A stretch of DNA of 64,000 nt, taken from Porphyridium purpureum (Eukaryota > Rhodophyta > Bangiophyceae > Porphyridiales > Porphyridiaceae). Shown one piece after another: positions 12,635-42,842 of this stretch (the stretch's first letter is position 1; each line of letters starts with the position of its first letter). The position numbers and the translations under genes were made by a program. Where the stretch lies: positions 372,001 to 436,000 of the forward strand of contig VRMN01000011.1 of NCBI GenBank assembly GCA_008690995.1, read 5' to 3'. Below the pieces are notes generated by a model. That model saw only the letters and a program-made list of their open reading frames with translations, was not told the DNA's origin and searched no databases.

Positions 12635-13679
12635 GATATCCGACGCAGACTACCCTTTTGCCGATAACATGTACGTCAAGCCGCCGTTTGTGGCAATGAC
12701 AGAGAAATAAAGGAAAAGAGCGAACAGGAGGAGGAAGAACAGACGAGGCTGGCACGAGAGACTGCCACCGGTGCGGAGACGAGGGTATCGTGCATCAAGC
12801 CGCCCGAGGCCAAAGCGCTTCAAGGGAGGGTACGCCAAGCATGCCAAGCAAATGGTCCTCAGGAGCATCGCTTGGGATGGTTTGGTGACTTCCAAACGAC
12901 TTGAAATTCCTGCATCGGACGCATCACTACGCGGATGCGCACGGAGAGCCGACGCCCGTGCGTGTGCCGCTCAGACGTACTTCATCCGACGTGAGTGGCA
13001 GCCTCTGGGCCCGCGAACTGCACGGCAGCTTGAGCATTTGCCGAATGGCTCTCGAGGCCTCTGGCGAAGCACGAACGCTCCTACTCTGCGCCATCGGCAC
13101 CCAACTTGTGCACGAGCACACGGTCTTCGGGGACTTGCTCGAAGACCAAGTACAGCGACGACCAGCCGCGGTTCAGTCATCGCTCACGCATGCCCTAAAA
13201 GTATCATCAAACGGGTGCGTTTTATCAGATAGACGCGGGTACAGTGTACCGCGTGTACCCAAGCCGATAGGCGCCGTAGGGTTTCGGCCCAAGTCGGTGC
13301 GGCCGAGGCGCGCGGTGCGTGCGTGCGTTCGGGCAGTGGTACGGATTGAACTCGACACTCGCGGACGGCGACAACGACGACAGGCCGGACGCGAAGGGCA
13401 GTCGTAAGCGCTGATGCCCGACTGCGTCGCTTCACGTTGCTTGTCGCGTGCGCGCTGCGTGTGCCTCCCCTCGTGGTTGCTTGGATACGGCTTGGTCGCG
13501 CCGTGGCGTCGGACCGTGCGGGCGGCGTTGGAATTTTCGATTGCACATTGCGGTGGCTGTTGACGGGGGGTGTAAGGTGCGCCTGTGGTGCTGTAAATGT
13601 GGCAGTGACGGTTGCAAGTACGTCGTCGAAGCGTGAGCGAAAGAACCTGCACCGGGTTTGCACACCAGGGCAAGTCAGG
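12635..13679. other. Intergenic region before PPR gene
   Basis: About 1 kb. An AATAAA at 12706-12711 lies some 70 bases after the COG5 stop and may be its polyadenylation signal. A TAGGGTTT telo-box-like element is at 13278-13285. Reading frames here lack ATG-supported protein-like sequence. The PPR frame is open from 13437, but that part reads like an untranslated leader. Confidence 0.35.
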
Positions 13680-16600
13680 ATGTGGGCTGTACTGGGCTTC
13701 ATCACGGCGGGATTTCCACGTCCGTGTGTCTATGTAGCGCACCACGAATGGGCGTCCCACTCGACGTCATCGCTCACGCGATCACCCGCGTGTAGACTTG
13801 GCGTAATCCGTTCTGTCCGGACGAGTCGTACGTATGTGTGCCATTTAACAGGAATGGCAGCCACGCGGACAGGGGCAGCGGGAGGCGATGATTTGGATGC
13901 CTTTATGGAAGACGTGGAGCTGAATGAGTTGAATGAAATGCTAGATTCGGTAGTCCAGGCCACAGCTCCCGAATCAGGTAAAAAAGTTGCCGCCTCGTCC
14001 CGGTCAAGGGGCAGGAAGACAGGCCCTGCAACCAGTTCAAAGAGTGATGCGCGCCGGGGAGCGAGTTTAGACTCCTTTTCGCCATTCGATGATGACGATG
14101 ATGAAAGTATGCCCCGAGCTGGCGGCTCCAGCAGTTTCGACGATGCCGCAGGTCTTTTCAGCACAAGGAAGCGGCGTCCGTCCCCAAAGTCTTCAGATTC
14201 CGGCCAGACTCATGGCAGCAGCGGGGTACCCTCGCCGCAAGCAAGGAGCAGTACTGGCAAGAAGAGTGAGCCCTTGCAGACAGAGGACGAAATTCTGGAT
14301 TTTCTGGACAGTTTCATGAACGAAGACGAATCCGCGGTGCCCGTGCCGACCCCGAACGCCCGGAAAATATCTGGTTCTGTGTCTGGCCGTGCTTCCAAAT
14401 GGGATGAAAGCGAGCTTATATCTGATGAAAGCGACAAAACGGGCGCGAAGAGGGTTCCGGGACGACGTTCTCCACGCGTTGCCGATGCTGATCACGATGA
14501 TGATGGCGATGACAACGACGATGACAACGACGACGACGAAGGCTTTGTTGACGCTTCTGCACCTGAAGAAACGCATACCCTTGATGAGTATGAGGATGAA
14601 GACGATGACGACGATGATGATGACGACGACGATGATGAAAGTTCTTTGTTCACAGCGTATGAGCCGGCAAATGAAAAAAGGAAGATACCTCGATATGATG
14701 GTACGTCTTCATTTGACCCTTCGTTGGATCGCAGGAGGTCATCCATCCACCATGAAGGTCGTGACGGTGCTGCCAACGCTGGTGCTCGTAGCGTTCGATT
14801 TGAGAGCCGAGGCCAGAATCGAAGGGGAGGTGCGGAGACAGATCAAGCTCTCCGCGATGTTGTAACTCAAGTGAAGAGTTTGCGGAAAGATGGGGACACA
14901 GAGAGCGCTCTGAGGTTGCTTGAGAATCATTTTAGTGACCAGTTCCCACCGCCTGTGAATTCCCTTACCTCCTTTGCCTTAGTCGAGTGGTTCATGCTTC
15001 TCGCAAAAGGCCCGACGGCAGAAGCCGCTCATAACAAGGCACGTGCGCAGAATCTGTTTGATTGGTGCGCGCCTCTGCCGCTTCTATTGAACTCGTACGC
15101 AGCTGACGCCTTCTTTAAGGCGTTTGGATCACAATTATCAATCACCGAACTTCGCCAAGCGCTCGACAAATATCGGTCAAGTGGCGGGAGCCACTCGCCG
15201 GATCCTCAGGTGTATAATACATGCATGCACCAGATGAGCTTGCAAGGCGATTTTCAGGCCGTAGAAGAGGTCTTCAGCCTTCTCAAGCAGGACGGCAAGA
15301 AGCTGGACGTGTATTCTTTCACGATCATGATTAATGCATGCGCAGAAGCGCATGCCGTAGAAGCGGCGATCATCGCGTACGAGGGCATGAAGGATTACGG
15401 CGTTGTGCCGAACGCAACCACCAAAAACTCGTTCTTGAAAGTCTTCGCGCGTGTCGGTGATGTGGACCGGCTGCGAAATTACTTTGACGAATTGTTTGTG
15501 CCAGAGATGCTTGAACATATGCAAAAAACGGACAAGCTCGAAACAAAGTACGGAATTAACGGGGAAAGTTCCGAAGGTGATGATGAGGCAGACTTGAGCT
15601 TTTTGGATACCGACGATGATGTCGTTGACGAACAGGCTAATGAAAAGGCGTCTGAAGGCGTTCCGGATTCATATGATCAGGATGACAGCCCGGATACTGT
15701 GACGTACGCAATTTTAATCAACGCATTCGCCAAGGAAGGAAATATTTCTGCCGTACTTGAATTTGTGAGGCACTTGGGTGAAGTGGATGCGCATATTTTA
15801 TGCACGGTTTTGAACGGATGTGCTGAAGCGAAGATGGGTGAACTTGCTCTCGAAATTTTTGCCGACATGACCGCGGCGGATGGTGTGTACAAAGTGGTGC
15901 CAAACATCCAATGCTACAATGCTGTGATCAAGGCGCTTTCCAGTTCAAGAATGTTGGCCGAGGCGGTTCACTTCTTCGTCCGAATGCGCCTCGAAGGGCT
16001 CGTGCAGCCGGGTGAGATCACGTTCAACACCCTTGTGAACATGTTTGGGCGCGAAGGCAAGGTGACAAACGCGCTCGAGGTCATGAAGCAGATGAGGAAG
16101 GATCACGTCGATCCATCATTGTACACATACACGTCACTGCTTAACGCATGCGCCGAGTCCAAGCGGCCAGACTTGGCCGATGCCGTGCTGAAAGAAATGA
16201 AGTATTTCGGTGTCGAGCCAGATATTACGTGCTGGAATGCTGCGCTGAAGGCGCGCGCAGTCTGTGGCCACGCGCGTGAAGCACAGGCATTGTTTACCGA
16301 AATAGGCAAGGCCAAGAAGGGTACTGTGAAAAAGAATACGATTACGTATAACACAATGATCTGGCTGCTTGTACAGCGCGCCAACTTCCGGGCCGCCATC
16401 GAAATGTTGGAACGCATGGAAACCGAGGACCCGCCCGTGCACCCAGACGACATCACATTTGCGGTGTTCTTCCAAGCGTTCAACAATGAGCGCAAGGGCT
16501 GGCTTAGCGTAAAAATGTACAAGGAGAGACGTGCTCAGGTGATAGCGACTGCCTCAATGGATTCGTACGCCCCACTGCTACGATCAGTGCTTTTTTCGCG

Positions 16601-16901
16601 TGAGAGAACGCCGGATGACATTGACTTGGTCCTCAAAGATATGCGCACTACGAGGCTCATTTCGGACGACAGGATATACGCCACGCTGTATGACACTTTT
16701 GTGGGCGGCAATGGTGCATTTCGTGAGGGGCTTCAAATCCTGGACCAACTTGCCAAGCGCGATATCCGGCGGCAGAAGGCTGCACGTCGCAAGCGCGGTG
16801 CCGACAGTTTCTTTGTGTATGGGCAGCTTGAGGCTTCTGTTAAGCAGCCAAACGCGTTCTCCGCAACCTCCCGACCACCACGGTCGTCAACGAGGACGTA
16901 G
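13680..16901 (+). CDS. Organelle-targeted pentatricopeptide repeat (PPR) protein with acidic linker
   Basis: About 1073 residues from ATG 13680. PPR proteins bind single-stranded RNA and process, edit or stabilise transcripts in plastids or mitochondria. From about residue 507 to 953 I count ten or eleven P-type repeats (VYNTCMHQMSLQGDFQAVEE, SFTIMINACAEAHAVEAAI, TYAILINAFAKEGNISAVL, CYNAVIKALSSSRMLAEAV, TFNTLVNMFGREGKVTNAL, TYTSLLNACAESKRPDLAD and others). The amino end is Arg/Ser-rich with His, like a presequence; ATG 13854 is the alternative start. Residues about 272-320 are almost pure Asp/Glu, encoded by a GAT/GAC repeat at 14497-14640. There is no DYW or SMR domain. It lies just before the pseudouridine synthase cluster and in the same direction. 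Confidence 0.9.
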   Translation: MWAVLGFITAGFPRPCVYVAHHEWASHSTSSLTRSPACRLGVIRSVRTSRTYVCHLTGMAATRTGAAGGDDLDAFMEDVELNELNEMLDSVVQATAPESGKKVAASSRSRGRKTGPATSSKSDARRGASLDSFSPFDDDDDESMPRAGGSSSFDDAAGLFSTRKRRPSPKSSDSGQTHGSSGVPSPQARSSTGKKSEPLQTEDEILDFLDSFMNEDESAVPVPTPNARKISGSVSGRASKWDESELISDESDKTGAKRVPGRRSPRVADADHDDDGDDNDDDNDDDEGFVDASAPEETHTLDEYEDEDDDDDDDDDDDDESSLFTAYEPANEKRKIPRYDGTSSFDPSLDRRRSSIHHEGRDGAANAGARSVRFESRGQNRRGGAETDQALRDVVTQVKSLRKDGDTESALRLLENHFSDQFPPPVNSLTSFALVEWFMLLAKGPTAEAAHNKARAQNLFDWCAPLPLLLNSYAADAFFKAFGSQLSITELRQALDKYRSSGGSHSPDPQVYNTCMHQMSLQGDFQAVEEVFSLLKQDGKKLDVYSFTIMINACAEAHAVEAAIIAYEGMKDYGVVPNATTKNSFLKVFARVGDVDRLRNYFDELFVPEMLEHMQKTDKLETKYGINGESSEGDDEADLSFLDTDDDVVDEQANEKASEGVPDSYDQDDSPDTVTYAILINAFAKEGNISAVLEFVRHLGEVDAHILCTVLNGCAEAKMGELALEIFADMTAADGVYKVVPNIQCYNAVIKALSSSRMLAEAVHFFVRMRLEGLVQPGEITFNTLVNMFGREGKVTNALEVMKQMRKDHVDPSLYTYTSLLNACAESKRPDLADAVLKEMKYFGVEPDITCWNAALKARAVCGHAREAQALFTEIGKAKKGTVKKNTITYNTMIWLLVQRANFRAAIEMLERMETEDPPVHPDDITFAVFFQAFNNERKGWLSVKMYKERRAQVIATASMDSYAPLLRSVLFSRERTPDDIDLVLKDMRTTRLISDDRIYATLYDTFVGGNGAFREGLQILDQLAKRDIRRQKAARRKRGADSFFVYGQLEASVKQPNAFSATSRPPRSSTRT
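14497..14640 (+). repeat. GAT/GAC triplet repeat encoding poly-Asp
   Basis: Imperfect trinucleotide tract inside the PPR gene coding a long acidic run, split by a short non-repetitive stretch near 14543-14600. It sits between the presequence-like region and the first PPR. Confidence 0.8.
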
Positions 16902-17078: not shown

Positions 17079-18143
17079 ATGAGCTGGGCTTGGTCAGTCT
17101 TCCCCGCCGGGGCGCTGTTCCGCGTGGTTGCTCGTGAGCGTGGAGCTGTCCAGGTGTGTGCACGCTCGCATTCTTTGTTTGCGGCTGCTCCACAACTAAT
17201 CGGAAGCATAGATACTTCGAGAAGAACAGGCGCAAGAAGTCGGCGAAGCGCGTCGTGCGCTGCGATTTCCTCGCCGGCAATGTCTGACGGGGAAGCGGTC
17301 GATGCGGATCTTTCTCAAATTCCCGATTGTCATTTCCTGATCTTGGATAAGCCGTACGGCGAGACGTCAGCGGCAGTGGTCGAGACGGCCAAAAGATGTC
17401 TCGGCAACTTGTACAAGGCCAGCCTGCAGACGCGGTACGATGAATACCAAACTACGCATGCCAGCATCGGACAAAAAGGTGGTAAGCGGCTCAAGTATCT
17501 CAAAGTCGGCCATGGCGGGACGCTGGACCCTTTCGCGACAGGCGTTTTGGTTCTTGGTATCGAGGGCGGAACCAAGCTCTTGGATCGTTTTCTGTCGGGC
17601 TCAAAGGCATACGAGTGCACAGCGCACTTTGGCGTGGCTACAAACACACAAGATGTGACCGGGGATAACATCGAGAATCGTCCTTATTCCCACGTGACCA
17701 AGCAGGCCCTGGACGCGATGATCCATGCGCGCTTTTTAGGAGAGATCATGCAAATCCCACCAATGTACTCGGCGCTCAAGGTGAATGGCAAGCGGTTATA
17801 CGAGTATGCACGTGCCAATCTTTCTGTCAAAGTTGATCCGCGGCCAATTCAAATCCTAGCTCTTGAAGTTCTCGAAGTGGATCTCCCTCGCGTGAAATTC
17901 CGGGTCGAGTGCGGAGGCGGCACATATGTGCGGACACTGATTCACGATCTTGCTCACGCAGTCGACTCGTGCGCCCATCTCACGCAGCTTCGACGCACAC
18001 GATGCGGCATGTTTAGTCTTGAGAATGCCATTTCCGCCGACAGAGATTACTTGCGTAGCCTAGGACCTGAGCTCGCGCGTCACCTTACGCATGCTGACGC
18101 AATCATAGCAGGTAGGTCGGGTCCCACTGATGCCACCCAATAG
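17079..18143 (+). CDS. PUS-1: TruB/Pus4-type tRNA pseudouridine synthase, canonical member
   Basis: 354 residues. Family enzymes convert U55 of tRNA to pseudouridine. All hallmark residues are present: DKPYGETS (motif I), the catalytic loop GHGGTLDPFATGVL with Asp at residue 150 (codon 17526-17528), the stacking Tyr in YECTAHFG, MYSALKVNGKRLYEYAR, and GTYVRTLIHDLAH with the catalytic-site Tyr and Arg. About 40 residues are inserted between motif I and the catalytic loop, as in fungal Pus4, and there is no PUA domain. Start ATG 17079 gives a 65-residue Arg/Ala/Ser-rich leader suited to an organelle. A possible splice donor near the 3' end could replace the last nine residues. Probably the ancestral-type member of the cluster. 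Confidence 0.93.
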   Translation: MSWAWSVFPAGALFRVVARERGAVQVCARSHSLFAAAPQLIGSIDTSRRTGARSRRSASCAAISSPAMSDGEAVDADLSQIPDCHFLILDKPYGETSAAVVETAKRCLGNLYKASLQTRYDEYQTTHASIGQKGGKRLKYLKVGHGGTLDPFATGVLVLGIEGGTKLLDRFLSGSKAYECTAHFGVATNTQDVTGDNIENRPYSHVTKQALDAMIHARFLGEIMQIPPMYSALKVNGKRLYEYARANLSVKVDPRPIQILALEVLEVDLPRVKFRVECGGGTYVRTLIHDLAHAVDSCAHLTQLRRTRCGMFSLENAISADRDYLRSLGPELARHLTHADAIIAGRSGPTDATQ

Positions 18144-18604
18144 CATCATTTTCGCCAGATTCCGCCGCCCGTTGCGAGTCACGGCATGCTAAACAGCCAG
18201 AGAGGTCCTGGACAATGTGCACGTCCAATGAAGACTTAACCATGACGCCTGGTGGCCCAGAATCACGGATGCTGGAGCAACTTGCATTTGGACTGCGGCA
18301 CGTTTCCAACTCTGGAGCTGGCACGGGTGAAAGCCTGCGAGCTTGAACTCTAGCAGGAGCAGGACTCGGTCGCATCTCACTATCCTTTGGTGGATGGAGG
18401 GTGACTAGCTCTTGTCTACCTTCAAGCGCTGAATTTCGGAACGTCGAAGGCATCATTTCGCCCGGCTGCAACGGCAGCCTGGACTCGTCTAACTTGCGGC
18501 TGCCCTGGAACATGACAGAGGTAGCGTATACACTTCGCAGTAAAGAATTCGAAGCTTGCGTAAAATGGTAACAGCGCAGCGATTGAGTGCAGAGGAACGA
18601 TACC
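18144..18604. other. Spacer between PUS-1 and PUS-2
   Basis: About 460 bases. If the candidate intron 18112-18200 is real, a second PUS-1 exon would continue to a TGA near 18350. Otherwise I see no gene. Confidence 0.3.
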
Positions 18605-20135
18605 ATGAGACGTTTTGGGGGATCGCAGTGGTCATCTCTCTTGTCCGCGGCGGGACATGCGGCAGGAGCGGCGTCGCGCGCTCGGAGCGGCGCGATATGG
18701 ATGTATTCGCTGCCGACGTGTTTCTTGCGCGAGCATGGATTCCGGCAACAGGGAAAAAAAACAGAGAAGGAGAAAGATGTCCGTGACGGACGTTCGGAAA
18801 AGGCGAAAGGTGACGGATATCAGGTATGATCGCGCGAAGAAAGGGGCGGAGGAAACGGGTTTGACCAAGGTTCCGGAGTGCTTTTTCTTGGTGCTGGATA
18901 AGCCAAGAGGACGGATGGCGCAGATGGTTGTCAACCAGGCAAGGACAAGCTTGGGAAACGTGTATGAAGACGCGCTGATGATGCGGTACCTGGAGTACCA
19001 AGCCAAACACTTGGTACGCGACAAGCGAACCGGCCTTCGAACCAAGGATGGCAAGAAATTGAAAAGCTTGGCAGTGGACTACGCTGCTGGGCGTAGCGGT
19101 TTGGACCCACTTGTGTCGGGCTTACTTCCACTCGCATTCGAAGGCGCCATAAAGCTCCTGCACCAATTCATGGATGGGATGCAGGAGTATGAATGTACGG
19201 CTCAATTCGGGGTAGGCACAGATGTTGATGACCTGGCAGGGAAAATGGTGGGGACGGGTCCGTTCTTGCACGTTACAAAGGAGTTATTGGAATCGGAAAT
19301 CCAGGCAAATTTCTTGGGCGACATTATGCAAGTACCACCTACATATCCAAGCTTCAAAATGCGAAATCAGGTTCTCGTCATGGTTCCCAATAAGAAGGCA
19401 GCCAAAGAGCACGCACAGCCACAGACAGCACACATTGGAGCATTTGAGGTCCTCGAGGTCGATGTCCCTCGCGCGCGCTTCCGCATCGAGTGCTCTCGCG
19501 GTACATATATTCGTGCCCTTATCCGCGACTTGGCGCTCGCAATCGGCTCGCGTGCCACTTGTACATCGGTGAGGCGCACACGCTGTGGCGTGTTCACTCT
19601 CGAACAGTCCATTTCAGGAGATGAGAATCATCTGAAAGCGCTAGGCAATCAGCTGAGCAACCACATCGTCCATGCTAATAGCCTCGTACCTGGCAGCTGG
19701 AATACAGAGAAACATAGGGTGATGTTTCTATCCAAGGCCAAAGAAGGGGCAGAGGCGAAGGACAAAGAGACAGCTCATAAAGAGCATACAGTCCAGGGAA
19801 ATGCAGAATGCGAAAGTGTGTCAAATTCAGAAACACTCGGGCGCAGCCAAGACGAGTTGGGTATCCCATTTGAATGCGCTGACAAAGACGAGACTCTTTC
19901 CAACCGCCAAGGCCCGGAAAAGGGTGACCAGGAACACAAACCTCGCGTAGTAGAGACAGATAACACAGGCTCTCGGGACCTGGAAGGTCATGCAGAATAC
20001 GGGGAGCAAGATATCGACGACTTTACGACGAGTGACGACGATGCCCATGATGGACAGACTTTCAAGGCCGGCTCGACGGGTCCTGCGGAGGAAGAAAAAC
20101 TGCGCGAATTGTGGGGTTTTATTGGTCGAGGTTGA
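18605..20135 (+). CDS. PUS-2: diverged TruB/Pus4 paralogue; leader in another frame
   Basis: The body (first in-frame ATG 18657, 492 residues) has motif I as VLDKPRGRMA, a catalytic loop GLDPLVSGLLPL that keeps Asp but not the GH..T lead-in, YECTAQFGVGT, and GTYIRALIRDLA with Tyr and Arg kept. The substrate loop MYS.LK..G..LY.YAR is replaced by unrelated sequence (TYPSFKMRNQVLVMVPNKK). The ATG at 18605 opens a different frame whose product (MRRFGGSQW..., IWMYSLPTCF) matches the leaders of PUS-4 and PUS-7. The two frames differ by one base and meet at an A8 run (18754-18761). The Glu/Ser-rich tail is about 150 residues. The tandem position suggests duplication from its neighbours. Confidence 0.85.
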
Positions 20136-20204
20136 TTAGCATTGTACCAAGGGAAGATAAAGCTGAGTATGCCTGCGTGATAAAGAATTGAATGCCTCTA
20201 CGCC

Positions 20205-21290
20205 ATGAAACGGGTCCTTTGGTCGGTGCCCACCTGCCCACGCCCGCTAGGACGCACGATGGACCCGTGGTGTGCACACGGAAGCGCGATGCGGACGGCG
20301 ACCCCGGCGCTCGTATTCGTGAGGGGGAAGAAGACATTGTCCAAGACCAAACACGCCAAGATCGAAACGATGAAGCGGTGGCAGATCAAGGTGGAGAAAT
20401 GGCATACGCGCGCGAAGGAGAAGGCGCGAGTCATGGGCTTGGAGACAGTTCCTGAATGCCATTTCTTAGTCCTGGATAAACCGGCGGGGGAAATTTGCCA
20501 ACCAATGGTGAACGTAGCCAAGAAGTTGCTTAGACTTGCGTACGGCGCCGCGATGGACATGCGATACTGCGCCTTCCAAAAGTATCGCGTCCAGGAAACG
20601 AAGCAAGAAATTGTCCTGCCCAAGGAAGGAAAGGTGTTGAGAACGCTGCCCCTTGACTATGGCACAACACTTGAAAGGTACGCGTCAGGCCTCATTGTGA
20701 TTGGTATTGAGAAGGGCGTGAAGCTTTTAGGGCAGTTTTTGGACGGTCCACACGTGTACGAATGCACGGCACAGTTTGGTACCGCGACCGACACGCTTCA
20801 CTTACAAGGCAAAGTGATTGAGGAGAGCTCGTACACCCATATTACCAAGGAATTCATGGAGGAGATGATGGAGACTTGCTTCACGGGAGACATCATGCAA
20901 GCACCACCGATAGCAAGCGGAGTTGTCTACCAGGCGATACCAGTGCAGGTTCACGCCTTCAAAGTGATTGAGTACGACTTGCCGCGCGTGCGCTTCCATG
21001 TCCGTTGTAGCGAACGCACACATGTCAGCAAGCTTGTCCACGATCTTGCTCACGCACTGAACTCAAGCGCGCATCTCACTGAGTTGAGGCGCTCACAATG
21101 TGGCTTGTTCAGCCTTGATGGCTCTATTTCTGGTGATCGAAAGTATCTGAATAGCCTGGAACCTAAACAATTGGAGAGCCACTTGAAGCATGCAAACGAC
21201 GTGAAACCTGGTAGCTGGCCTTTTGCTCCTCAGCGCGCGCGAAGGAAAGCAATACCGCGGGTCTCGCCGGCGGTCATAAGAACTGAGTGA
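20205..21290 (+). CDS. PUS-3: TruB/Pus4 paralogue with lost catalytic residues
   Basis: 361 residues from ATG 20205. It has the family frame: VPECHFLVLDKPAGE, a helical insertion, YECTAQFGTATD, IMQAPP and LTELRRSQCGLFSLD. The nucleophilic Asp is Glu (TLERYASG, residue 157, codon 20673-20675). The GTYVR box has become RTHVSKL, so the conserved Arg is Ser (residue 275). About 25 residues holding the substrate-binding MYS.LK..G..LY.YAR loop are absent (PPIASGVVYQAIPVQVH). On established TruB mechanism this should not be an active synthase. The leader MKRVLWSVPTC is basic and related to those of PUS-4 and PUS-7. Only 69 bases separate it from PUS-2. Confidence 0.88.
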   Translation: MKRVLWSVPTCPRPLGRTMDPWCAHGSAMRTATPALVFVRGKKTLSKTKHAKIETMKRWQIKVEKWHTRAKEKARVMGLETVPECHFLVLDKPAGEICQPMVNVAKKLLRLAYGAAMDMRYCAFQKYRVQETKQEIVLPKEGKVLRTLPLDYGTTLERYASGLIVIGIEKGVKLLGQFLDGPHVYECTAQFGTATDTLHLQGKVIEESSYTHITKEFMEEMMETCFTGDIMQAPPIASGVVYQAIPVQVHAFKVIEYDLPRVRFHVRCSERTHVSKLVHDLAHALNSSAHLTELRRSQCGLFSLDGSISGDRKYLNSLEPKQLESHLKHANDVKPGSWPFAPQRARRKAIPRVSPAVIRTE

Positions 21291-21869
21291 GAATGGCCAC
21301 CAGTGGACAAACAGCTGCCGAAGTTTTGATGGCGGAAAGGAAAGCGTAGTATTTCGAGAACCAAGCATCAAGATGAATCGTGCTGTGATTTCAATTTGGC
21401 GAGGTCGAGTACACCGCACAGAACGCCGATGCCAATTCTGGACACACGCGAGCATTTGTATCTGCTGTCCGCTGTGTTCGCTATCACTTTACCGGTGATG
21501 CGTGTCAATTCACCGCTGGCTTGCATTCGAATGGGTGCACAGCGCTTGGCCATCCATGCACAATTATCTACTCAGCTGTCAAGGTTAACCTGCCTGTCTT
21601 GCTTTCAGCCAATGCCGGACGCGGAGACATGGACATCAAGTGATCCGGAGAGTCAATAAAGACAGATTTAAAGGCGGTCGCTCCCTCCGCATGCTGCACC
21701 AGAGCATCGTCGATATGCAGGTGTGGTGACACCCTCTGTGGCAGCCGCCGCGAAAGTGACCGTCAATGCCCTCGCGATCTTTACCGTCGATTGTTTATGA
21801 CTAAGAATTTGCGAAACCAGGCTATTGACGGTCGGCGGTTGGTGACGCAACATTGAGTTGGGCGCAATC
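21291..21869. other. Spacer between PUS-3 and PUS-4
   Basis: About 580 bases with no recognisable gene and no obvious leftover piece of a pseudouridine synthase copy. Confidence 0.35.
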
Positions 21870-23171
21870 ATGAAGGGCCTGCCTTCTTGGCCTTTGTTTG
21901 CGCCAGTGCGGCCGCGCGCTACGAGTCCCGTTAGCGCCGAGGTGTCATCCGTATGGTCGTGTTTTCTGCCGCGCGTATTCTCGCGAGGGAGACGCGTCGC
22001 CCACAAGCGCTTGTGGAGGCAAAAAAAGGCGGAGGAGAAAAGAAGAATATTGGATTATGATAAGGCGCGTCGATTGGCGGGGCAGGAGGCACTGCAAACT
22101 GGATTCGAATTCGTTCCGGACTGTCACTTCCTCGTTATCGATAAACCACAGGGCCTCTCGAGTTATACACAAGCAGGGCACATCAAGAAGAGTATGACCA
22201 AAGTATTTGAGTCGATGCTGAAGATGCGCTTCTACGCGTTCCACCAGAGGTATCAAGGAAAGAATGGGAAGTTGCTGAGTCTTAGAATGGGCAAGACTCT
22301 GAAGAAGATCAAAGTTACAGGTTTGGAAACCTTGGATTCTTTCGCGACTGGTGTCTACCCAATAGTCGTGGAGGACGCAATTCGAGTTGCCAAGCATTTC
22401 AAAGACGGTACGAGAGAGTACGAGTGCACGGTTTGCTTTGGAAGCGGTACAGACAATCAGTTTAGTTCCGGGAAGACAGTGGAGGAACGCGAATTTTCCC
22501 ATGTGACAGTGGATGCAATGAAAGAGATGATCAAACAGCGCTTCATTGGCGAGCTCATGCAAGTGCCGCCAATGTACTCTACCGTAAAGTTCGAAGGCAG
22601 ACCGCTGCATGATTACGCAGAGCGAGGAAGAAAGGTAGACATTGAGCCCCTGCCGGTCCATGTGTATGCTTTTGAAGTTCGCAGATTCGAACTTCCTCAC
22701 GTGCGTTTTCACGTCCAATGCGACCCGAAAACATTCATTCGATCACTTGTATGTGACCTTGCGCATGCGCTGGACTCGTGTTGCCATGTTTCGGCACTGA
22801 GGCGCACGCGATGTGGTGTTTTTAGAATCGAGGACGCCGTATACGGGTCACCAGAGAGCTTGGTCGCTCTTGGACCAAAGATAGGCAAGCACCTGATCCA
22901 TGCAAATCAGCTCATTCCTGGGATATGGAAGCAGCCTGACGAATCCAGTCAACCATCGAATACCGAAGGGACATCCGTAAGCGATGGTGAAATGAAGGGT
23001 CAGAACGATGAAGATCACGACGAGCAGCGTGATGAACAGACATCCGAGGAGTATGAAGAGATGACGGATGAAGACGATGAAGACAATGGAGACGATGAGT
23101 ACGACGAAGAGAGCGCAGACAGCGATGATAATACGCTAGATGAAGAGTTCAGATCACGACATGGCTATTGA
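21870..23171 (+). CDS. PUS-4: TruB/Pus4 paralogue with acidic tail
   Basis: 433 residues from ATG 21870 (MKGLPSWPLFAP). Motif I is VPDCHFLVIDKPQGLSS. The catalytic Asp is kept in ETLDSFATGVYP, though the usual DP is DS and the His of the loop is missing. YECTVCFGSGT, a complete MYSTVKFEGRPLHDYAERG substrate loop, and KTFIRSLVCDLAHAL with Arg kept (Tyr to Phe) follow. It ends with HANQLIPGIW and an Asp/Glu-rich tail of about 80 residues. The leader is shared with PUS-7. The residues allow activity, so it may still be an enzyme. Confidence 0.88.
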   Translation: MKGLPSWPLFAPVRPRATSPVSAEVSSVWSCFLPRVFSRGRRVAHKRLWRQKKAEEKRRILDYDKARRLAGQEALQTGFEFVPDCHFLVIDKPQGLSSYTQAGHIKKSMTKVFESMLKMRFYAFHQRYQGKNGKLLSLRMGKTLKKIKVTGLETLDSFATGVYPIVVEDAIRVAKHFKDGTREYECTVCFGSGTDNQFSSGKTVEEREFSHVTVDAMKEMIKQRFIGELMQVPPMYSTVKFEGRPLHDYAERGRKVDIEPLPVHVYAFEVRRFELPHVRFHVQCDPKTFIRSLVCDLAHALDSCCHVSALRRTRCGVFRIEDAVYGSPESLVALGPKIGKHLIHANQLIPGIWKQPDESSQPSNTEGTSVSDGEMKGQNDEDHDEQRDEQTSEEYEEMTDEDDEDNGDDEYDEESADSDDNTLDEEFRSRHGY

Positions 23172-23788
23172 TCTTGCTGTACGCAAACACGGTATCATGT
23201 GTTCAAGCCTTCCTCACGCCCAAGATTGTCGTTTCTTTCTCATACTGCGTAATGTCTCGGTTCATGATGTTGAAGGAACAGATAGCAGGCTGTTTTCTGA
23301 ACGACAAAGATGAAAAACAAACCTGAGATGGGAGGGTAATCAGGGATTGCGGTTTTGGGTCCGTCTTGTCCAAGAAGCAAGGCAGCAGATTTTGTTTCAT
23401 GATCACTATCGTCCGCCGGCGCTGTTGAGCACGTTCGGGCCAACTCGAGCTCGGATCATTGTGAGATTAGGACGCGTGGACCCATGTCTCCTTGCGCACA
23501 CGCTCTTTCTTGAACTCAGATTACAAACGGCGTAAATATTGGGTCTTACAGATCGGACAAGGCAGCAGTGAAAAGTTGCGTATCCTTCACGTCTCAGTCA
23601 TTACGGCACGATCCATCACTTTCTCGCAAGCTGTAACCCGCACCTTCTAGAGTCATGGTGAAATGCGTCTTTTCGATAGTCCACGGAAACTTTCGTTTGT
23701 TTGCGTCGCTGACGAATGCGTGGGCGAGGAGTACCATAGCACAGGACGTTATGTTGAGTGCCATATACCTTAACTTCGACCTTTTAGC
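23172..23788. other. Convergent spacer between PUS-4 and PUS-5
   Basis: About 620 bases between convergent 3' ends, marking where the orientation of the cluster switches. No gene seen. Confidence 0.35.
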
Positions 23789-25459
23789 TCACCACCAAAC
23801 AGTTGTGTCCGGCTGGTGCTTTGGTTGTGATTTGGGAGGCTTGTACTCCGGTTCGGGACCATCCTCGTCGTCAGAGTCTGTTCTCTGGTCATTGTCGTAA
23901 TGAACATCATCAGAAGCATGGTGATCATCACTATCTTCGTCATCCGTCAGGTCGCTATCCACGTCTGCTGAACGATCACTATCGTCATCAAGAATGTCCT
24001 CAGCTTCGCCCACGTCGCTTGACGATGTGCTGCGCCTGCGGCTAGCCCTTGGCGTCTTATCAACATCATTTCTACTGCCAATTTCTTCTTCGTCCTTCTC
24101 TCCTTCGTCCTTTTCTTCTTCGTCCTTCTGTTCTTCGTCTTGCTCGGCTTCTGAGATGCTTCCGCCCAGCTCCTCCGTGTCGCTAGCCTGGTCCGTCTGG
24201 TGCAATTTTTGTCGCGCGTGCATGTATTGCCGCGCATACTGCACCTCTGGATCCACCTCCGAATTTTCGGGCTCTTCGGAAAATACTGGAACAAAGGGCT
24301 TGGGCTTTCGAGGCTGTGGACTGACAACGCCCGGGATCAGGCTATTTGCATGTCTCGCGTGATTGTGAATATCGGTCCTCAATTTTTTCAACGCTTGCTT
24401 GCTTCCCGAAATGGCGTCCTCCACTTTGAAAGGTCCGATCCTTGTTCGCCTCAAACCAGCAACGCTCGCGCACGAGCCGAGCGCATGTCCCAGATCGTGA
24501 ATGAGCGATCGAATGAAGGTGTGCCTACAGCACTCCACATGAAAAGACGCATACGGAGGCTCAAATTTGATAATTTTGAAGGACATCACCGTCACGGGTC
24601 GTGGCTCAACCTTCATGTCAGATGCCGTCTTTCCTGTTCGTGCATATCTCCACATCGGCTTCCCGAATAGTTTGACTTCAGAAAAAATCGGAGGTACTTG
24701 CATAATATTACCGGTAAACTGCTCCTTAATGATGTCGTCTATTGCCTCTTTCCTGATTTGACGATAGTCGCTTTCTTCGACCACTCGCCCAGTCTGATAG
24801 TGCGTGTTTGTACCCTTTCCGAATAAGGCTACGCACTCATACTCCCGAGTGCCGCCTTCAAAATCTTGAAACTTTTTGACCAGCGCGGTGGCATCTTCAA
24901 GGGCAAAAGCAACAACACCTGACGCGTATGCATCGAGTCCTTCCAGCTGCATACTCTTGATCTTCTTCAGATTCTTCATGTTTTGAAGAGCAAGCTTCTT
25001 TCCCTTGAGCCAAGAGCGCCCTGGTTTCTTCGCATAACCAACCATCCAGTCATACGCGGCGTTGTAATAGCGATTCATTAGCGCCGGACGCAACGCGACT
25101 TTGAGTTTCTTCTCAATATCCTCGCTGAGATTGCTACACATCATGCCTTGCGGCTTGTCGATGATTAAAAAATGGCAGTCGGGCACTCTCACGTCGAGAC
25201 CTTCGTCGTGTATTTTGCCCCAGAGCATCTTGCGCTCTTTTCCAATGAGTTTCATCTGTGTGTTATGCTCGTTCCTCATCTTGATCAGCTCGCGATGGGA
25301 GAATCTTCTGGGACCTCCTCCCTTCGCTCGTGAGAACACTGCAGACACGCCATACCGCCACGCCGCCAACGCCGCGCCGCGCTCGCAGCTCTCATCGCGT
25401 GCCCGTATCGGTGCAAGCAAACGCCAGTTTACTGCTCTCATGATCACTGCCGACGACAT
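23789..25459 (-). CDS. PUS-5: TruB/Pus4 paralogue with long acidic tail
   Basis: 556 residues (550 from ATG 25441, whose MRAVNWRLLAP start fits the shared leader better). Motif I is VPDCHFLIIDKPQGMMC. The catalytic Asp is in QLEGLDAYASGVV, followed by YECVALFGKGTN, a full FSEVKLFGKPMWRYARTGK loop and HTFIRSLIHDLGHALG with Arg kept. After HANSLIPGVV comes a tail of about 150 residues extremely rich in Glu, Asp and Ser. It is closest by eye to PUS-7 (shared MQL.GLD, RYAR.GKTA, HANS.IPG and PDI/TDI stretches). Opposite strand to PUS-4 and PUS-7, same strand as PUS-6. Confidence 0.88.
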   Translation of the reverse strand: MSSAVIMRAVNWRLLAPIRARDESCERGAALAAWRYGVSAVFSRAKGGGPRRFSHRELIKMRNEHNTQMKLIGKERKMLWGKIHDEGLDVRVPDCHFLIIDKPQGMMCSNLSEDIEKKLKVALRPALMNRYYNAAYDWMVGYAKKPGRSWLKGKKLALQNMKNLKKIKSMQLEGLDAYASGVVAFALEDATALVKKFQDFEGGTREYECVALFGKGTNTHYQTGRVVEESDYRQIRKEAIDDIIKEQFTGNIMQVPPIFSEVKLFGKPMWRYARTGKTASDMKVEPRPVTVMSFKIIKFEPPYASFHVECCRHTFIRSLIHDLGHALGSCASVAGLRRTRIGPFKVEDAISGSKQALKKLRTDIHNHARHANSLIPGVVSPQPRKPKPFVPVFSEEPENSEVDPEVQYARQYMHARQKLHQTDQASDTEELGGSISEAEQDEEQKDEEEKDEGEKDEEEIGSRNDVDKTPRASRRRSTSSSDVGEAEDILDDDSDRSADVDSDLTDDEDSDDHHASDDVHYDNDQRTDSDDEDGPEPEYKPPKSQPKHQPDTTVWW

Positions 25460-25977
25460 CTTCGCACGGTCCTTCGAGCTTCAGCCATCATCCGGGTCGG
25501 ATCGTCAGCTGGAATGGATGCGCTGCGTCGGGAGGGAAGTAGGACAGACGGCAAAAACAGGACAACAGCTCCCGAACATGGAAGCCAGTCGCTCCAGCCA
25601 GCTCGCTTGGGTGTTCTTTATCCTACGTAACAGTGCAGAGAAGCGCTTCTGGCTGTGCATGCAACGTGCATGGCTCGTTGTTGCGTGTTTTGCTGTATCT
25701 CAGGGCCGCTCACCTACGATTTCGACTTCACTGCGGATTTCGCAGAGAGATAGTGTGAGTCCGTCATGTTTATGATTCGCTCGCGCGCCCCAGATTGCCC
25801 TGCGGTCCGCAGATGCGTCGTATCGGCAAGCGTAGCACTCGGAAGAAAGAAAACCTTCGAACACTAAAAGTCAAAGGCCCTTTTGTCATATCTTGGCTTT
25901 TCTGGACGTTCTGCAAGAATACTTAACATCCAAGCTGCGAGCACATCATCAGGACCGGGTGAAAGTGCCGACACTCG
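25460..25977. other. Spacer between PUS-5 and PUS-6
   Basis: About 520 bases upstream of PUS-5 and downstream of PUS-6 (both minus). Expected to contain the PUS-5 promoter. No gene seen. Confidence 0.35.
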
Positions 25978-27099
25978 TCACCTTTTGTTGATGTGGAAGG
26001 TGACTTCAGGGTTTTCAGAGTTCTCGAGGAAGATCCGCTTGGCATGCTTGAGTTTGTTGAGAACGTAGGGACCCATTGCCTCCAGCGAATCTCGGTCGCC
26101 AGGAATGGCATCCTCGATTTTGAACCAGCCGCGCCGAGTACGCTTCATTTCGGTAAGATGCGCGGCCGACTTGAGCATATCGGCAAGATCAGGAACAAAA
26201 GTCCTGACGAAATGTCCCTTATCAACCACGACACGGAAACGCACGCGAGGAGGCTCAAACTCAATCACCTTGAACTCGTGAACAACATCTCGCTGTGCGC
26301 CAGGGGAAATATCTTTTCCTTCACGTTTCCATTTGTACATTGGTTTCCCGTTGTGTCTCCACGCAGAGTCAGTCGGAGGAAACCACATCACCCTGCCATT
26401 AAATCTGCCGTTGATCATCTTCTCTATTGCTTCGACTGTCACGTGTGAAAACGTCTTCTCCATAATCACCTCACCAGTCGAATACTGGTTACTGGTTGCA
26501 CTACCAAATAAAGCTGTTAGCTCGTATTCTTTCGTGCCTCTGATAAACTCGTGCACAGTGCTTATGACCTGTGTCGCACCTTCGACAGCAAGAACCGTAA
26601 TCCCCGTCTGAAACTTGTCCAGCGTCATCACGTTTCCGGCACTTTCGATCCTCGCGGACTTCAGATGCTTCAAGGTTCTCGCATCTTGCAGAATCTTCTT
26701 CCGGGTTGATGGCTTCCGAAACTTTGGCAGCGTTTTGAGCAGGTGCTTGTAGTACCGCACTTCTAGCGCCGGCGCCAGCCAGGTTCGAAGCGCTCTCACA
26801 CCATTTGCGATACAGTCCTGGTTCGTGATCCCCATTGGCTTGTTCAGGAGCAGAAAATGACATTCAGGAACTTCTTCAACCCCTTTTTCCTTCGCTTCAG
26901 CCAGCGCCTTCTTGCGGAGCTTATCCAGTTTCTCATGCTGCTTTTCCAAGTGCGGTCGCCGCTTTTGGAACTCCGGATCCACCTTCCAACTTTTCAATCC
27001 GCGCGACAGGATGCGCGGCACCGCGCAGGGCCACATCACGCTCGGCAGCTTCCCAGCGTTCGCCAATGGCTGAAAAAACGAGCCACATGTTCGTGCCAT
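25978..27099 (-). CDS. PUS-6: TruB/Pus4 paralogue, short form
   Basis: 373 residues from ATG 27099. Motif I is VPECHFLLLNKPMGITN, with Asn in place of the usual Asp. The catalytic loop is VMTLDKFQTGI with Asp kept, then YELTALFGSATS. The substrate loop is altered but present (DSAWRHNGKPMYKWKREGK). The GTY.R box is GHFVRTFVPDLADML, keeping Arg. It lacks the acidic tail, and the terminal HAN..PG box is degraded (HAKRIFLENSEN). The leader MARTCGSFFQPLANAG... is basic and presequence-like but differs from the MKGL type. A moderately diverged member that could be active. Confidence 0.87.
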   Translation of the reverse strand: MARTCGSFFQPLANAGKLPSVMWPCAVPRILSRGLKSWKVDPEFQKRRPHLEKQHEKLDKLRKKALAEAKEKGVEEVPECHFLLLNKPMGITNQDCIANGVRALRTWLAPALEVRYYKHLLKTLPKFRKPSTRKKILQDARTLKHLKSARIESAGNVMTLDKFQTGITVLAVEGATQVISTVHEFIRGTKEYELTALFGSATSNQYSTGEVIMEKTFSHVTVEAIEKMINGRFNGRVMWFPPTDSAWRHNGKPMYKWKREGKDISPGAQRDVVHEFKVIEFEPPRVRFRVVVDKGHFVRTFVPDLADMLKSAAHLTEMKRTRRGWFKIEDAIPGDRDSLEAMGPYVLNKLKHAKRIFLENSENPEVTFHINKR

Positions 27100-27422
27100 T
27101 ACAGGCCGCCCGCGGCGCGCTTAACTTGTCCGTCTTTCAGTTTTTCACGTTCCCTGACGCTCGTCTCTTCGGCATGGCCAGAAGTAAGCGAAAGGAGCGG
27201 TGGGCACTCATGCGAAGACACCGACGGCTGCCGGGATGCGTTCCAGACTTGAGCAAAACCAAGTGATTGCGCAAGCGCTCGATTCACGCATCCGTGTGGT
27301 ACTCTGACGGGCGCGCGGGAGGGTGAAGCACTGGTTGGCGTTGTAGCGCTGCGATAAATGTGTGGCAAGGCATCGTGATCTGACCCGTTTGCCGCCCTTC
27401 GAAGATCTTGAGTTGGCTCTGT
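27100..27422. promoter_or_regulatory. Divergent region PUS-6/PUS-7
   Basis: About 320 bases between divergent starts, so it should hold both promoters. No clear TATA box. Confidence 0.35.
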
Positions 27423-28916
27423 ATGGCCATGAAGGGGTTATCTTGGTCGGTATTTGCGCCCTTGGTGGCACGCGTCAAAATGTCCGAACGCGTAGGCGTC
27501 CGGAGCTTGTGGCCAAGTTCGCTTCCTACAGTTTTTTCGCGCACAAAGAAGTCAAAGTCCAAGCCGATGACCAAGTCAAAGTTTAAGATGATCAAGAAGC
27601 GGAGCGTTGCGTTCTTGAAAGTTATCGACAGCGAAAGGAAAATCCTTGAGAAGAGAGCCAAGACCAGCGGGCTAGTTCTGGAAGTTCCAGACTGCCACTT
27701 CCTCGTCGTCGACAAGCCGCACGGTATGCTAGCCGGAACACTTACTGAGGAGGTCGAGAGAGGGTTAAGGATCACCATGGCCGCGGCAGTGAATTTTCGA
27801 TATCTCAATGCACGGTATGAGTATGAGAAATTTAATTGGTGGAAGCTCGGTCACGAAAATACAAAGAGAAGAAAGATCACGCTGCAGCATATGAGGGGCC
27901 TCAGGCGAGTCCGATTTATGCAGCTCAGAGGACTGGACTCGTTTACATCAGGTGTAGTGCCGTTCGCCCTTGAGGGCGCTATCGAGCTTATGGACCAGTT
28001 TGAGATCGGTACGAGAGAGTTCGAGTTCACGGCCGAGTTTGGAAAAGCGACGGACTCTTTTTACAGTTCTGGCCAGGTTACTGCCGAAAAGGACTTTGAA
28101 CACATTACAGAAGAAATGGTAGATCAGGTCGTCAGGGACCAGTTTATTGGCGAGCTCCATCAAGTTCCTCCAATGTTCTCAAACGTGAAGCTAAATCGCA
28201 GACCTCTTTGGCTATACGCGCGGAAAGGAAAGACCGCTGCAGAATTGGGAGTTAAAGCACGCCCCATAGAAGTGTTTTCTCTCAAAGTGCTCAAGTTCGA
28301 GCTCCCGCGGATTTGGTTTCACATAGAATGTTGCAGGTCCACATACGTGCAAGTGCTGGTGAACGATCTAGGTCTCGCGCTCGGGTCATACGCGAATGTT
28401 ACCAAACTCAGACGCACTCGTACCGGACCCTTTCATGTCTCGGACGCTATTGCTGGTGACAAGCGGACGCTGCGTAAACTACGCCCAGACATCGGCAGCT
28501 ACTGCAAGCACGCAAATAGCGTCATCCCAGGCAGTTATATCCCACCAGCTCCTGTGGTCGAGGTTAAGAAGAAAAAGCCCAAGATTCGGATAGTCGTGCC
28601 AGACCGGCAGTACGAGCGCCGGTACTTCTATTTGAAGCCGCAGGGCGATGATGATGCTCAGAAGTCGGCATTCATCGATGATCACGAGTTTGCGCCGAAG
28701 AATGCACAGGACTCGAGCACTGACACGCTCGACGCGGATGGCGAAGATGCAACAGTGGAGGAAGAATACGAGCCTGAGCTCGATTCTGAGTCCGATGCCG
28801 AGTCTGAGTCCGAGCTCCACGACGAGCACGATCGGGTCAAAGAGACACCACAGTTCGTAGATGAGGAAGTGCAAATATCCAGGCAGCAGGAAGGAGAGAG
28901 AGGATCCAACGATTAA
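27423..28916 (+). CDS. PUS-7: TruB/Pus4 paralogue, catalytic Tyr and Arg replaced
   Basis: 497 residues from ATG 27423 (ATG 27429 gives the shared MKGLSWSVFAPL start). Motif I is VPDCHFLVVDKPHGML. Asp is kept in RGLDSFTSGVV (residue 172), but the stacking Tyr is Phe (FEFTAEFG, residue 200) and the catalytic-site Arg is Gln (STYVQVLVNDLG, residue 310). The substrate loop FSNVKLNRRPLWLYARKGK is intact. A HANSVIPGSY box precedes a basic patch and an acidic Ser/Asp/Glu tail. It may bind RNA with little or no catalysis (inference). It ends about 300 bases before the MED1-like gene. Confidence 0.88.
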   Translation: MAMKGLSWSVFAPLVARVKMSERVGVRSLWPSSLPTVFSRTKKSKSKPMTKSKFKMIKKRSVAFLKVIDSERKILEKRAKTSGLVLEVPDCHFLVVDKPHGMLAGTLTEEVERGLRITMAAAVNFRYLNARYEYEKFNWWKLGHENTKRRKITLQHMRGLRRVRFMQLRGLDSFTSGVVPFALEGAIELMDQFEIGTREFEFTAEFGKATDSFYSSGQVTAEKDFEHITEEMVDQVVRDQFIGELHQVPPMFSNVKLNRRPLWLYARKGKTAAELGVKARPIEVFSLKVLKFELPRIWFHIECCRSTYVQVLVNDLGLALGSYANVTKLRRTRTGPFHVSDAIAGDKRTLRKLRPDIGSYCKHANSVIPGSYIPPAPVVEVKKKKPKIRIVVPDRQYERRYFYLKPQGDDDAQKSAFIDDHEFAPKNAQDSSTDTLDADGEDATVEEEYEPELDSESDAESESELHDEHDRVKETPQFVDEEVQISRQQEGERGSND

Positions 28917-33420: not shown

Positions 33421-34476
33421 TCAATATTCCGAACTGAAAACGCTCTCTGAACTGGTTTCCATTCCATGGTGAGGTCTTTTGCGTCCCCTGCGAGTTTCGC
33501 GAATGTCCTTGTCGAGAACCAATGCTCGTTCAGGGCAAATAAACGCGACGAGCGGCTTCCAGAAGCGCATGCGAATATTTATGAACCAATTCGCCACCTG
33601 TGTTTCGCTCAGTCCCGTCTGCCGGGCGAGACTTTTCTTTTCGGCTTTGGTCGGGTACGGCTTCAGAATGTGATCGAACAGCCACAGCCGAAGCTTATTC
33701 GAGCTATGGAGGTCAATGTTGCTCTTGGTGCTTCGGAAGAGCAGCTGATGGACATTTGAAGCCCTCATCTTCATGGCGTGCGAAATATACAGGCGAATGA
33801 GCGTTTGTCGAGCACGCAAGAATGCCTTGACGACTTCGCCCTCGCGTTCGCGAGCCTCCAGCTCGGGAACGAGCCGAAATTTGCTCTGCAGCTCAAGTTC
33901 ATGTGAAACGATTGAGGTATATATCTCGCAGCGCTGGCGAAGCGCGTGAAGCTTTTCTAGTAGCTCCTGTAAGCGCGGATCGTCCGACACGTCAAAGAGC
34001 GTCGCATGAGCCAGCTCTTCTGCGCTGGCGTCCGACCCACTCGCTGGTGCTCGCGTTCTTTTCCCATGCAGCTTTTGTTTGACTAGAAGTTGAACATCCT
34101 CATCTGTGGCAGGATACTCAAGTCGCCGCACATCATCTTGAATGGCGTACGGGAACGCACGAGACTCAATGCTCCCGCGAACAAGAGAGAGCACGTCCGG
34201 CCTGCGTGCGACGCGCTCTTCAAATCTATCGATACTTTCACGTGGCGGCAAGACCACGACACGCAACGGAAGCCTTCGTTGCTCGTGAGGAATTCTCCCG
34301 TGGCACGAACCACTCGTGCTGCTGGCCGACTGCGCCACCGCCATTTTCGAATCCCTCTTTGTTGGGCTGCGGGTTCGTGCACAGAGTTGGGAGCCACGGT
34401 GGTACAACACGACAACCTCAAGACTCAGCTCCGCAACCTTGTGCTCCTTTCCAAGACCGGCACAATCCTGCCCCAT
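33421..34476 (-). CDS. TALE-class homeodomain transcription factor A
   Basis: 351 residues from ATG 34476 (ATG 34344 is a plausible shorter start). The homeodomain, encoded about 33540-33700, has the three-residue PYP loop extension of the TALE class ([15 protein letters not shown]), a second helix [12 protein letters not shown] and a complete recognition helix [12 protein letters not shown] with Trp, Phe, Asn and Arg in the expected places. Upstream are a Lys/Arg-rich stretch and an [15 protein letters not shown] segment shared with the neighbouring TALE gene. Green-algal and plant TALE proteins (KNOX/BELL) act as heterodimers controlling the haploid-diploid switch. The role here is unproven. 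Confidence 0.9.
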
Positions 34477-35064
34477 CTGCGGACGCGGCCTTGCGACCTG
34501 AATAAATACCTCCAATCCACCGAGCAGTCTTCAATCAGATTCGGGAATAAAACCAACAGCGGCCAAGTTGTCACCCATCACTCTATCCCATTGAATTCAG
34601 TGGCGCTTATGATGCGGTCCAACCTACTCCGTGGATCGATAGGGGAAACGGCGTTGCGTTTCCAAACCATGCGTCGCCTGTTCCAGTGAGTGCTTCCGGC
34701 GTGTCGACACGAAAACACATGGAGTCTTCTTCTCTGGAATCATGATCCAACCTTCGTCCAAAACCATTGATGTGAGTATTTAAGTAGAAGAAGAATGACG
34801 GAAGCAGAGACAGATGCCGTCTCTCGGTACATACGTGTGTGACGCTCTGGATAAGAGCACCTTCTGTGTTCTGCTATTCACCTGCAGTGATGTCGTGGAC
34901 CAAATGGTGCGATAAATTCGGGCATCCACGACAGAGGGCGCCCTAAATTCATACAAAAGCCAACGAGAAAGGTCCGAGCTCAACACGCATGGCTCACAAA
35001 TGAATTTGGACAGACATTCGCGAGCACGAAACAGACCATGCTTCTCATATTTGACACCTACATA
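34477..35064. other. Spacer between the two TALE genes
   Basis: About 590 bases upstream of TALE A and downstream of TALE B. Should hold the TALE A promoter. No gene seen. Confidence 0.35.
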
Positions 35065-35943: not shown

Positions 35944-36122
35944 TCTTCCCGCAAGCCGGTGTAGCAATGTGCGAATCGCCCAAGCGCCAGACGCAAATCC
36001 CGCCAGTGCGAGCCCGGCACAACTTGCGGACTCATTTTATACTACCCGCACGCCACGCGGCAGCACGCGCGGTGCGCCAGTCCGTCCTCATCCAACATCT
36101 CGCCCCACCGTCAGCGCGCATC

Positions 36123-42500: not shown

Positions 42501-42842
42501 CACGCGTAAAAAACCCCCCCGACTCTTCTTACTGTTTTCTCTGTCACAAGGCCAGACGAAGCTTCGGAAACGATGAACAACTCGCGCAGGACTTCCGTCC
42601 CCTCCCCTCTCGCCCCCGCTGCCTCTGTTTCTCCGACTTCGAGATAGAACGGAGGTGCCGCGGTGTACTTGAGGTACAGTCACTTCTGGTTATGTTTAAT
42701 CATTCTGGTCATTTATTAATATGCGTTAATTAATTCAGGTCCACAGTGGAAAGCGAGAGGGCGCCGGTGTGAGGAGTGGGAGAATGCGAGGCTCGGGTCT
42801 GAGATTGAGCGCGCACTTGACGGACATGAGCCAGTGGTGAGT
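42501..42842. promoter_or_regulatory. Divergent region before the SDR gene
   Basis: About 340 bases between divergent starts. An AT-rich patch at 42695-42735 contains the near-palindrome TTAATATGCGTTAATTAA about 110 bases before the SDR start. No gene. Confidence 0.35.

Follow-up and report, generated by a model that had tools for sequence, protein, structure and literature searches.

Eukaryotes generally keep one to a few TruB genes. Among bacteria, exactly one match to the TruB_N domain was found in each of 113 distinct genomes (sets of 15 and 99 genomes with one genome in both, the 15 having been picked for holding TruB). The window analysed here, a stretch of 64,000 nucleotides from the red alga Porphyridium purpureum (contig VRMN01000011.1, positions 372,001 to 436,000), carries seven adjacent TruB-like open reading frames (ORFs). 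All seven frames are intact; they span window positions 17079 to 28916 in the order P1+ P2+ P3+ P4+ P5- P6- P7+, and are called P1 to P7 below. What we describe is a known enzyme family, here locally expanded with strong divergence.

The closest described systems are TRUB1/Pus4 and bacterial TruB. The array resembles them in that TruB_N is recognized in all seven proteins, the TruB domain of human TRUB1 (Protein Data Bank (PDB) entry 8jfx) is the top PDB match for P1 as well as for the family profile, and no PUA domain was found in the seven proteins among Pfam matches with E values up to 0.1. It differs from them by its seven adjacent copies, six of which fall below the equivalog cut-off and lack the GHxG loop, by a stretch of 57-72 residues between motif I and the catalytic position in all seven copies, and by acidic tails on four of them.

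Other likenesses come from the literature, which is drawn on throughout this text in excerpts of the papers cited. The TruB-like Chlamydomonas protein Raa2 (Maa2) is needed for splicing of psaA intron 2, whose domains I-III it binds (PMC7912774). Its physical presence is reported to be required and its isomerase activity to be dispensable (PMC8910892), and PMC13172542 cites it as enzyme-like and recruited to splicing. Like the array copies, Raa2 is a TruB-like algal protein, and one that acts on RNA, reportedly without need of isomerase activity; unlike them, it is a green-algal trans-splicing factor with a defined target, and the array copies are likened to it by description and not by sequence. 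Maize also shows a lineage-specific rise in TruB copies, with three ZmTruBs; in contrast to the array, these are more than 90% identical, and the excerpt reports no tandem duplication of PUS genes in maize (PMC8910892). Cbf5/dyskerin, the synthase of the H/ACA ribonucleoprotein, has its superfamily and fold in common with the array copies, but these score far under its cut-offs of 238.15 and 242 bits (best 108.6 bits) and have no PUA match. A description of such a tandem TruB array was not found in the open-licence literature among the matches listed, in keeping with an earlier note on this DNA, which had taken the array to be undescribed.

Family membership and common origin of the seven copies

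The earlier note had recognized seven adjacent, diverged TruB/Pus4 paralogues, and profile searches bore this out: all seven proteins scored above the cut-off of PF01509 (TruB_N, 27.3 bits), with 76.2 to 170.6 bits and an E value of 3.7e-50 for P1. The NCBIfam equivalog profile for TruB, TIGR00431 (cut-off 151.45 bits), was passed by one of the seven, P1, with 204.9 bits; the scores of P2, P3, P4, P5, P6 and P7 were 111.3, 96.5, 143.2, 130.4, 111.6 and 119.0 bits, respectively. Judged by this profile, P1 is the only copy that counts as a TruB/TRUB1/Pus4 member in the strict sense.

Pairwise identity among the seven copies ranged from 31 to 44%. Over all 21 pairs, identity at the first, second and third codon positions was 0.50, 0.58 and 0.34, respectively, meaning that the resemblance is more than chance. 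Where two copies shared an amino acid (M and W excluded), they used the same codon in 1007 of 2604 cases, compared with 894.8 expected from codon usage; synonymous sites are thus near saturation. Since frames of 354-556 codons have remained open despite this divergence, selection appears to keep the proteins.

We then considered how the copies are related to each other and to TruBs from elsewhere. The bacterial set was taken from the best 80 of 587 confirmed loci; one of them (L071) was left out because its open frame was too short, which left 79, with E. coli as L001. The tree comprised P1 to P7, the TRUB1 stretch of 8jfx and 27 bacterial TruBs, that is, every third of the 79. In this tree P1-P7 made up one side of a branch with a support of 94/85, just below the level starred by the tool, and the eight eukaryotic rows (P1-P7 and TRUB1) came together at 99/98. 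Inside the family, P1 stood beside the other six copies (94/72), P2 went with P3 (84/63), and P6, P4 and the pair P5-P7 were grouped (92/87, 98/94 and 100/99). The end branch of P1 was the shortest of the seven (0.30), those of P2-P7 measuring 0.47-1.32. The TRUB1 row covers motif II onward only, has a long branch (1.65), and its placement was flagged as unsure by the tool.

The alignment revealed 23 positions that six or all seven copies hold in common and that occur in less than 25% of the 79 bacterial TruBs; these include VP[DE]CHF, with which motif I starts, an R-Y pair within the insert and a final HA motif. Because the copies form one clade against TRUB1 and 27 bacterial TruBs and share these family positions, the local amplification of a TruB/Pus4-type gene that had been proposed is supported. 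The array would then be a local expansion of a gene for a TRUB1/Pus4-type synthase of the pseudouridine at tRNA position 55 (Psi55), TRUB1 being the sole outside eukaryotic row.

Mobile elements and viruses were also searched. In viral contigs P1 had no match, and the family profile gave 37 pattern hits, none of which was confirmed. The plasmid and phage collections returned 56 and 20 records, respectively, with less than 60% identity; among the matches listed (20 and 10), the annotated ones read truB.

Active-site residues, fold and terminal extensions

Motif I ([VI]P[DE]CxFL, three residues, KPxG) is present in all seven copies, and the GHGGTLDP loop is complete in P1 only; on both points the alignment agrees with what the earlier note had read. 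The GHxG loop is lost in all of P2-P7, and His43 (residues are given in E. coli numbering), which we take to be the residue probing the T-loop, is kept in P1 only. The C-terminal LRRTRxG end, which had been said to be shared by all copies, is not strict: P2 has VRRTR, P3 LRRSQ and P6 MKRTR. As a more general measure we used the 41 sites conserved at 90% or more in the 79 bacterial TruBs, of which P1 keeps 38, P2 23, P3 21, P4 28, P5 28, P6 26 and P7 24. The sequence HxGxLD, named as an active-site consensus (PMC9458420, PMC8910892), is found in one copy of the seven, again P1.

The losses differ from copy to copy. P3 has Glu in place of the catalytic Asp48 of motif II, Ser in place of Arg181, and lacks the segment from Lys130 to Gly143, presumably the 'thumb'. 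In P7, Tyr76 is replaced by Phe and Arg181 by Gln; the title of PDB entry 2ab4 calls the tyrosine strictly conserved. Asp90, which we assume to form an active-site network with Arg181 and Arg141, is retained in P1 and P2 only, P4 having Phe and P5, P6 and P7 Tyr at this position. P4 retains Asp48, Tyr76 and Arg181 and has Glu in place of Arg141; P5 and P6 also retain Asp48, Tyr76 and Arg181, and P2 keeps the equivalents of Asp48, Tyr76, Asp90 and Arg181. From its intact active site, P1 is predicted to be a canonical TRUB1/Pus4-type Psi55 synthase. P3 is probably inactive as a synthase because the catalytic Asp, Arg181 and the thumb are lost, and so, probably, is P7, owing to the loss of Tyr76 and Arg181; P2 may be active. 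To describe the family as RNA-modifying looks safe in the case of P1 alone: residues of the catalytic core are gone from P3 and P7, and the His43 loop from P2-P7, although the Asp is kept in six of the seven.

AlphaFold2 models were built for two of the seven copies, from an alignment of the seven copies and 22 bacterial TruBs. The core of P5 reached a predicted local distance difference test (pLDDT) score of 89.0 and a predicted template modelling (pTM) score of 0.85, and that of P3, the copy with the most losses, 92.1 and 0.86. For both models the best PDB match was the TruB domain of TRUB1 (8jfx), with TM scores by target length of 0.78 for P5 and 0.83 for P3, followed by bacterial TruBs. 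These models point with confidence to a TruB fold kept in P3 and P5.

The stretch from the KP of motif I to the catalytic position is 57-72 residues long in the seven copies, compared with a median of 27 and a maximum of 43 in bacteria (67 of the 79 measurable by pattern). In the P5 model its extra part consists of two helices (40-59 and 66-81), in line with the helical insertion that the earlier note had read. The net charge of the stretch from P1 to P7 is +5, +7, +4, +11, +10, +11 and +9, the bacterial median being +4 and the range 2-9 (n = 67); three copies are thus above the bacterial range, and P1-P3 show no gain. The extra charge fits an added RNA-binding surface, bearing in mind that the stretch is also longer.

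Ahead of motif I each protein has 71-91 residues with a net charge of +3 to +17, and within the first 45 residues the charge amounts to +2 to +11 in all seven copies. A W-x-[VL]-[FL] segment is common to the N-termini of P1, P4, P5 and P7 (P3 has WSVP), and P4-P7 share a [VI][FL]SR segment before the basic part. These N-termini bear some resemblance to import presequences, which might bring most or all copies into an organelle. At the other end of the proteins, acidic C-terminal tails of 87-184 residues with 34-57 D+E each are found on P2, P4, P5 and P7 (ends at 20135, 23171, 23789 and 28916); P6 has no acidic tail.

Possible roles of the diverged copies

We tentatively favour, with a probability of about 0.4, the reading that P1 makes Psi55 and that P2-P7 are targeted to an organelle and serve in the maturation of RNA, possibly of group II introns. 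According to this proposal, a single TRUB1/Pus4-type tRNA Psi55 synthase gene would have been duplicated in place up to seven adjacent copies, as the tree supports. P1 would keep the ancestral job, the pseudouridylation of U55 in the tRNA T-loop, as its intact active site suggests; it also has the shortest end branch and is the only copy above the equivalog cut-off. P2-P7 would have kept the TruB fold, lost the GHxG loop together with varying active-site residues, and carried the enlarged insert; their proposed role is that of maturation factors or chaperones that bind RNAs different from the standard T-loop. Their basic, presequence-like N-termini may bring most or all copies into the organelle, where the likeliest clients, by analogy, would be intron-containing organellar RNAs of Porphyridium, handled in the manner of Raa2/Maa2.

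Such clients would be numerous. The plastid of P. purpureum contains 42 group II introns (PMC8742464, PMC4476101), and P. purpureum mitogenomes contain 46 introns with 14 intron-encoded proteins, that of P. aerugineum having 9 introns (PMC8742464). The refolding of tRNA by E. coli TruB does not depend on catalysis (PMC11301382). In the light of this chaperone precedent and of that of Raa2, P2-P7 could plausibly be factors that help organellar RNAs to fold or to be spliced. The PPR gene located 177 bp upstream of P1 was also counted for an organelle-RNA role. In its widest form, the idea is that a tandem, nucleus-encoded and partly or wholly catalytically degenerate TruB family provides modular organellar intron-splicing and RNA-folding factors, each copy with its own RNAs, which evolved in step with the group II intron invasion of the plastid and mitochondrial genomes; taken this far, it is unlikely. 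On this view, to which the same doubt applies, the family would be a protein answer to intron load that uses a pseudouridine synthase as its scaffold instead of PPR, OPR or CRM domains. The intron-factor reading is attractive and unproven.

Several observations weigh against a maturation role in organelles. The Raa2 intron belongs to group IIA (PMC13172542) and the plastid introns of P. purpureum to group IIB (PMC4476101), and we regard the Raa2 parallel as loose. The earlier note had thought of organellar RNA as a possible target, and the basic and partly similar N-termini suggest an organellar role; however, several other window proteins are equally basic at their N-terminus, for instance a SURF4-like (+6) and an ALG5-like protein (+8), the comparison of the seven copies with all 13 other computed window proteins gave a modest difference in charge (p = 0.028), and the N-termini do not distinguish plastid from mitochondrion as the destination. 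The inserts of P3 (+4), P1 (+5) and P2 (+7) are no more basic than those of bacteria, and the bacterial TruBs in the model alignments favour a TruB fold. Finally, Asp48 is present in six copies, Tyr76 in six and Arg181 in five, and several copies may still be enzymes.

These residues lead to the main rival, namely that most or even all copies still make pseudouridine, but at different sites in organellar tRNA, rRNA or mRNA, their specificity having been changed by the insert and by the alterations in the motif II loop. It gains from the equivalents of Lys19 and Arg202, which are found in all seven copies, and from P2, in which Asp48, Tyr76, Asp90 and Arg181 are all in place; moreover, mitochondrial tRNAs are substrates of human TRUB1, and an action of TRUB2 on mitochondrial mRNA is described (PMC9458420). 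This explanation has to account for P3, devoid of the Asp, Arg181 and the thumb, for P7, devoid of Tyr76 and Arg181, and for the loss of Asp90 in five copies and of His43 in six, and we consider it possible, if somewhat unlikely.

The peculiarities of red-algal tRNA genes suggest a different role, in which nuclear pre-tRNAs with unusual introns are the substrates of the family and the extra copies handle precursors with an intron in the T-arm. Indeed, the Cyanidioschyzon merolae enzyme cmPus4 is inactive on a pre-tRNA with a T-arm intron, but the same excerpt describes C. merolae with one cmPus4 gene and no family (PMC9602550). In addition, ARAGORN found no tRNA in the window, and the N-termini of the array copies have some likeness to targeting peptides, so that we hold this role to be improbable.

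The view that each copy has its own orthologue elsewhere, all seven being ancient paralogues of eukaryotes that lie next to each other by happenstance, is very improbable. The large divergence between copies would be expected from it, and the tree holds one other eukaryotic row, TRUB1, on a long and unsurely placed branch. Against it, human TRUB1 falls outside all seven copies, the 23 shared positions are marks of the family, and the N-terminal segments W-x-[VL]-[FL] (P1, P4, P5 and P7) and [VI][FL]SR (P4-P7) are held in common. It is extremely improbable that P2-P7 have no role of their own and are duplicates in slow decay. Conserved TruB positions are indeed lost in every copy except P1 and the branches are long, but six frames of 361-556 codons have stayed open while synonymous sites came close to saturation, the third codon position is less conserved than the first two, and both modelled copies (P3 and P5) fold confidently.

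One canonical and six diverged tandem members constitute a natural experiment in which an RNA-modifying enzyme is possibly turning into an RNA-binding factor. Should group II introns prove to be the clients of the family, this would be a case of a host recruiting proteins against organellar intron invasion. Porphyridium lends itself to a direct test of that intron-factor role of P2-P7: its mitogenomes vary in intron number (46, 46 and 9; PMC8742464), and P. purpureum is transformable (PMC10866757).

Gene calls and neighbouring genes

The coordinates of the seven genes and of selected features inside them are collected in Table 1. The intergenic gaps within the array measure 69-617 bp. A search of the seven proteins against the 64-kb window with tblastn (E up to 0.01) gave 49 hits, all inside the array and consistent in strand and place, and revealed no further TruB fragment elsewhere in the window. 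The two ORFs of at least 150 residues that lie in, or reach into, the gap between P1 and P2 have no Pfam match; the statement that no unrelated gene lies between the copies thus holds for recognizable genes, the test having covered gap ORFs from 150 residues upward and not shorter ones.

Table 1. Window coordinates of the TruB-like genes P1 to P7 and of features within them
Feature	Position	Strand	Remarks
P1	17079-18143	+	ORF open from TTG 16998; 80 residues ahead of motif I
P1 catalytic Asp codon	17526-17528	+	
P2	18657-20135	+	likely ATG start 18657; ORF open from TTG 18615 (18615-20135)
P3	20205-21290	+	
P3 codon at catalytic Asp position	20673-20675	+	GAA = Glu
P4	21870-23171	+	likely ATG start 21870; ORF open from TTG 21858 (21858-23171)
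P5	23789-25459	-	
P5 helical insert, between motif I and motif II	24965-25090	-	model helices 40-59, 66-81
P6	25978-27099	-	
P7	27429-28916	+	likely ATG start 27429 or 27423; ORF open from TTG 27408 (27408-28916)

The genes on either side of the array are unrelated to TruB. Upstream of P1 lies the PPR gene (13437-16901, + strand), which encodes a large protein with a PF13041 match (E 2.3e-50) and a long acidic, D/E-rich stretch; PPR proteins are another organelle-RNA type of factor, here found beside the TruB array. Downstream, a Med1-like gene lies 297 bp beyond P7. The window as a whole has a G+C content of 55.18%, close to that of C. merolae too, and is densely occupied by long, mostly intron-free ORFs; this density, like the single cmPus4 gene named for C. 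merolae, speaks more for Porphyridium. The G+C content given for P. purpureum is 55.5% (PMC10866757).

Among the other genes of the window, the ORF at 59178-61421 (- strand) encodes a protein of 747 residues with a C-terminal hemerythrin domain and a long preceding part without Pfam match, and the 402-residue ORF at 55036-56244 (- strand) has a signal-peptide-like start and no Pfam match. The ORF at 41505-42683 had no PDB match at E values up to 1. Two TALE (Homeobox_KN) genes are adjacent on the same strand (33421-34515 and 35065-35967, both - strand); in red algae, KNOX-Red1 is reported from all species examined, KNOX-Red2 from two classes and one non-KNOX gene from most, in an excerpt that mentions neither Porphyridium nor Cyanidioschyzon (PMC6219170). 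A SET-domain ORF on the opposite strand (35766-36839, + strand) overlaps the start of the second TALE gene.

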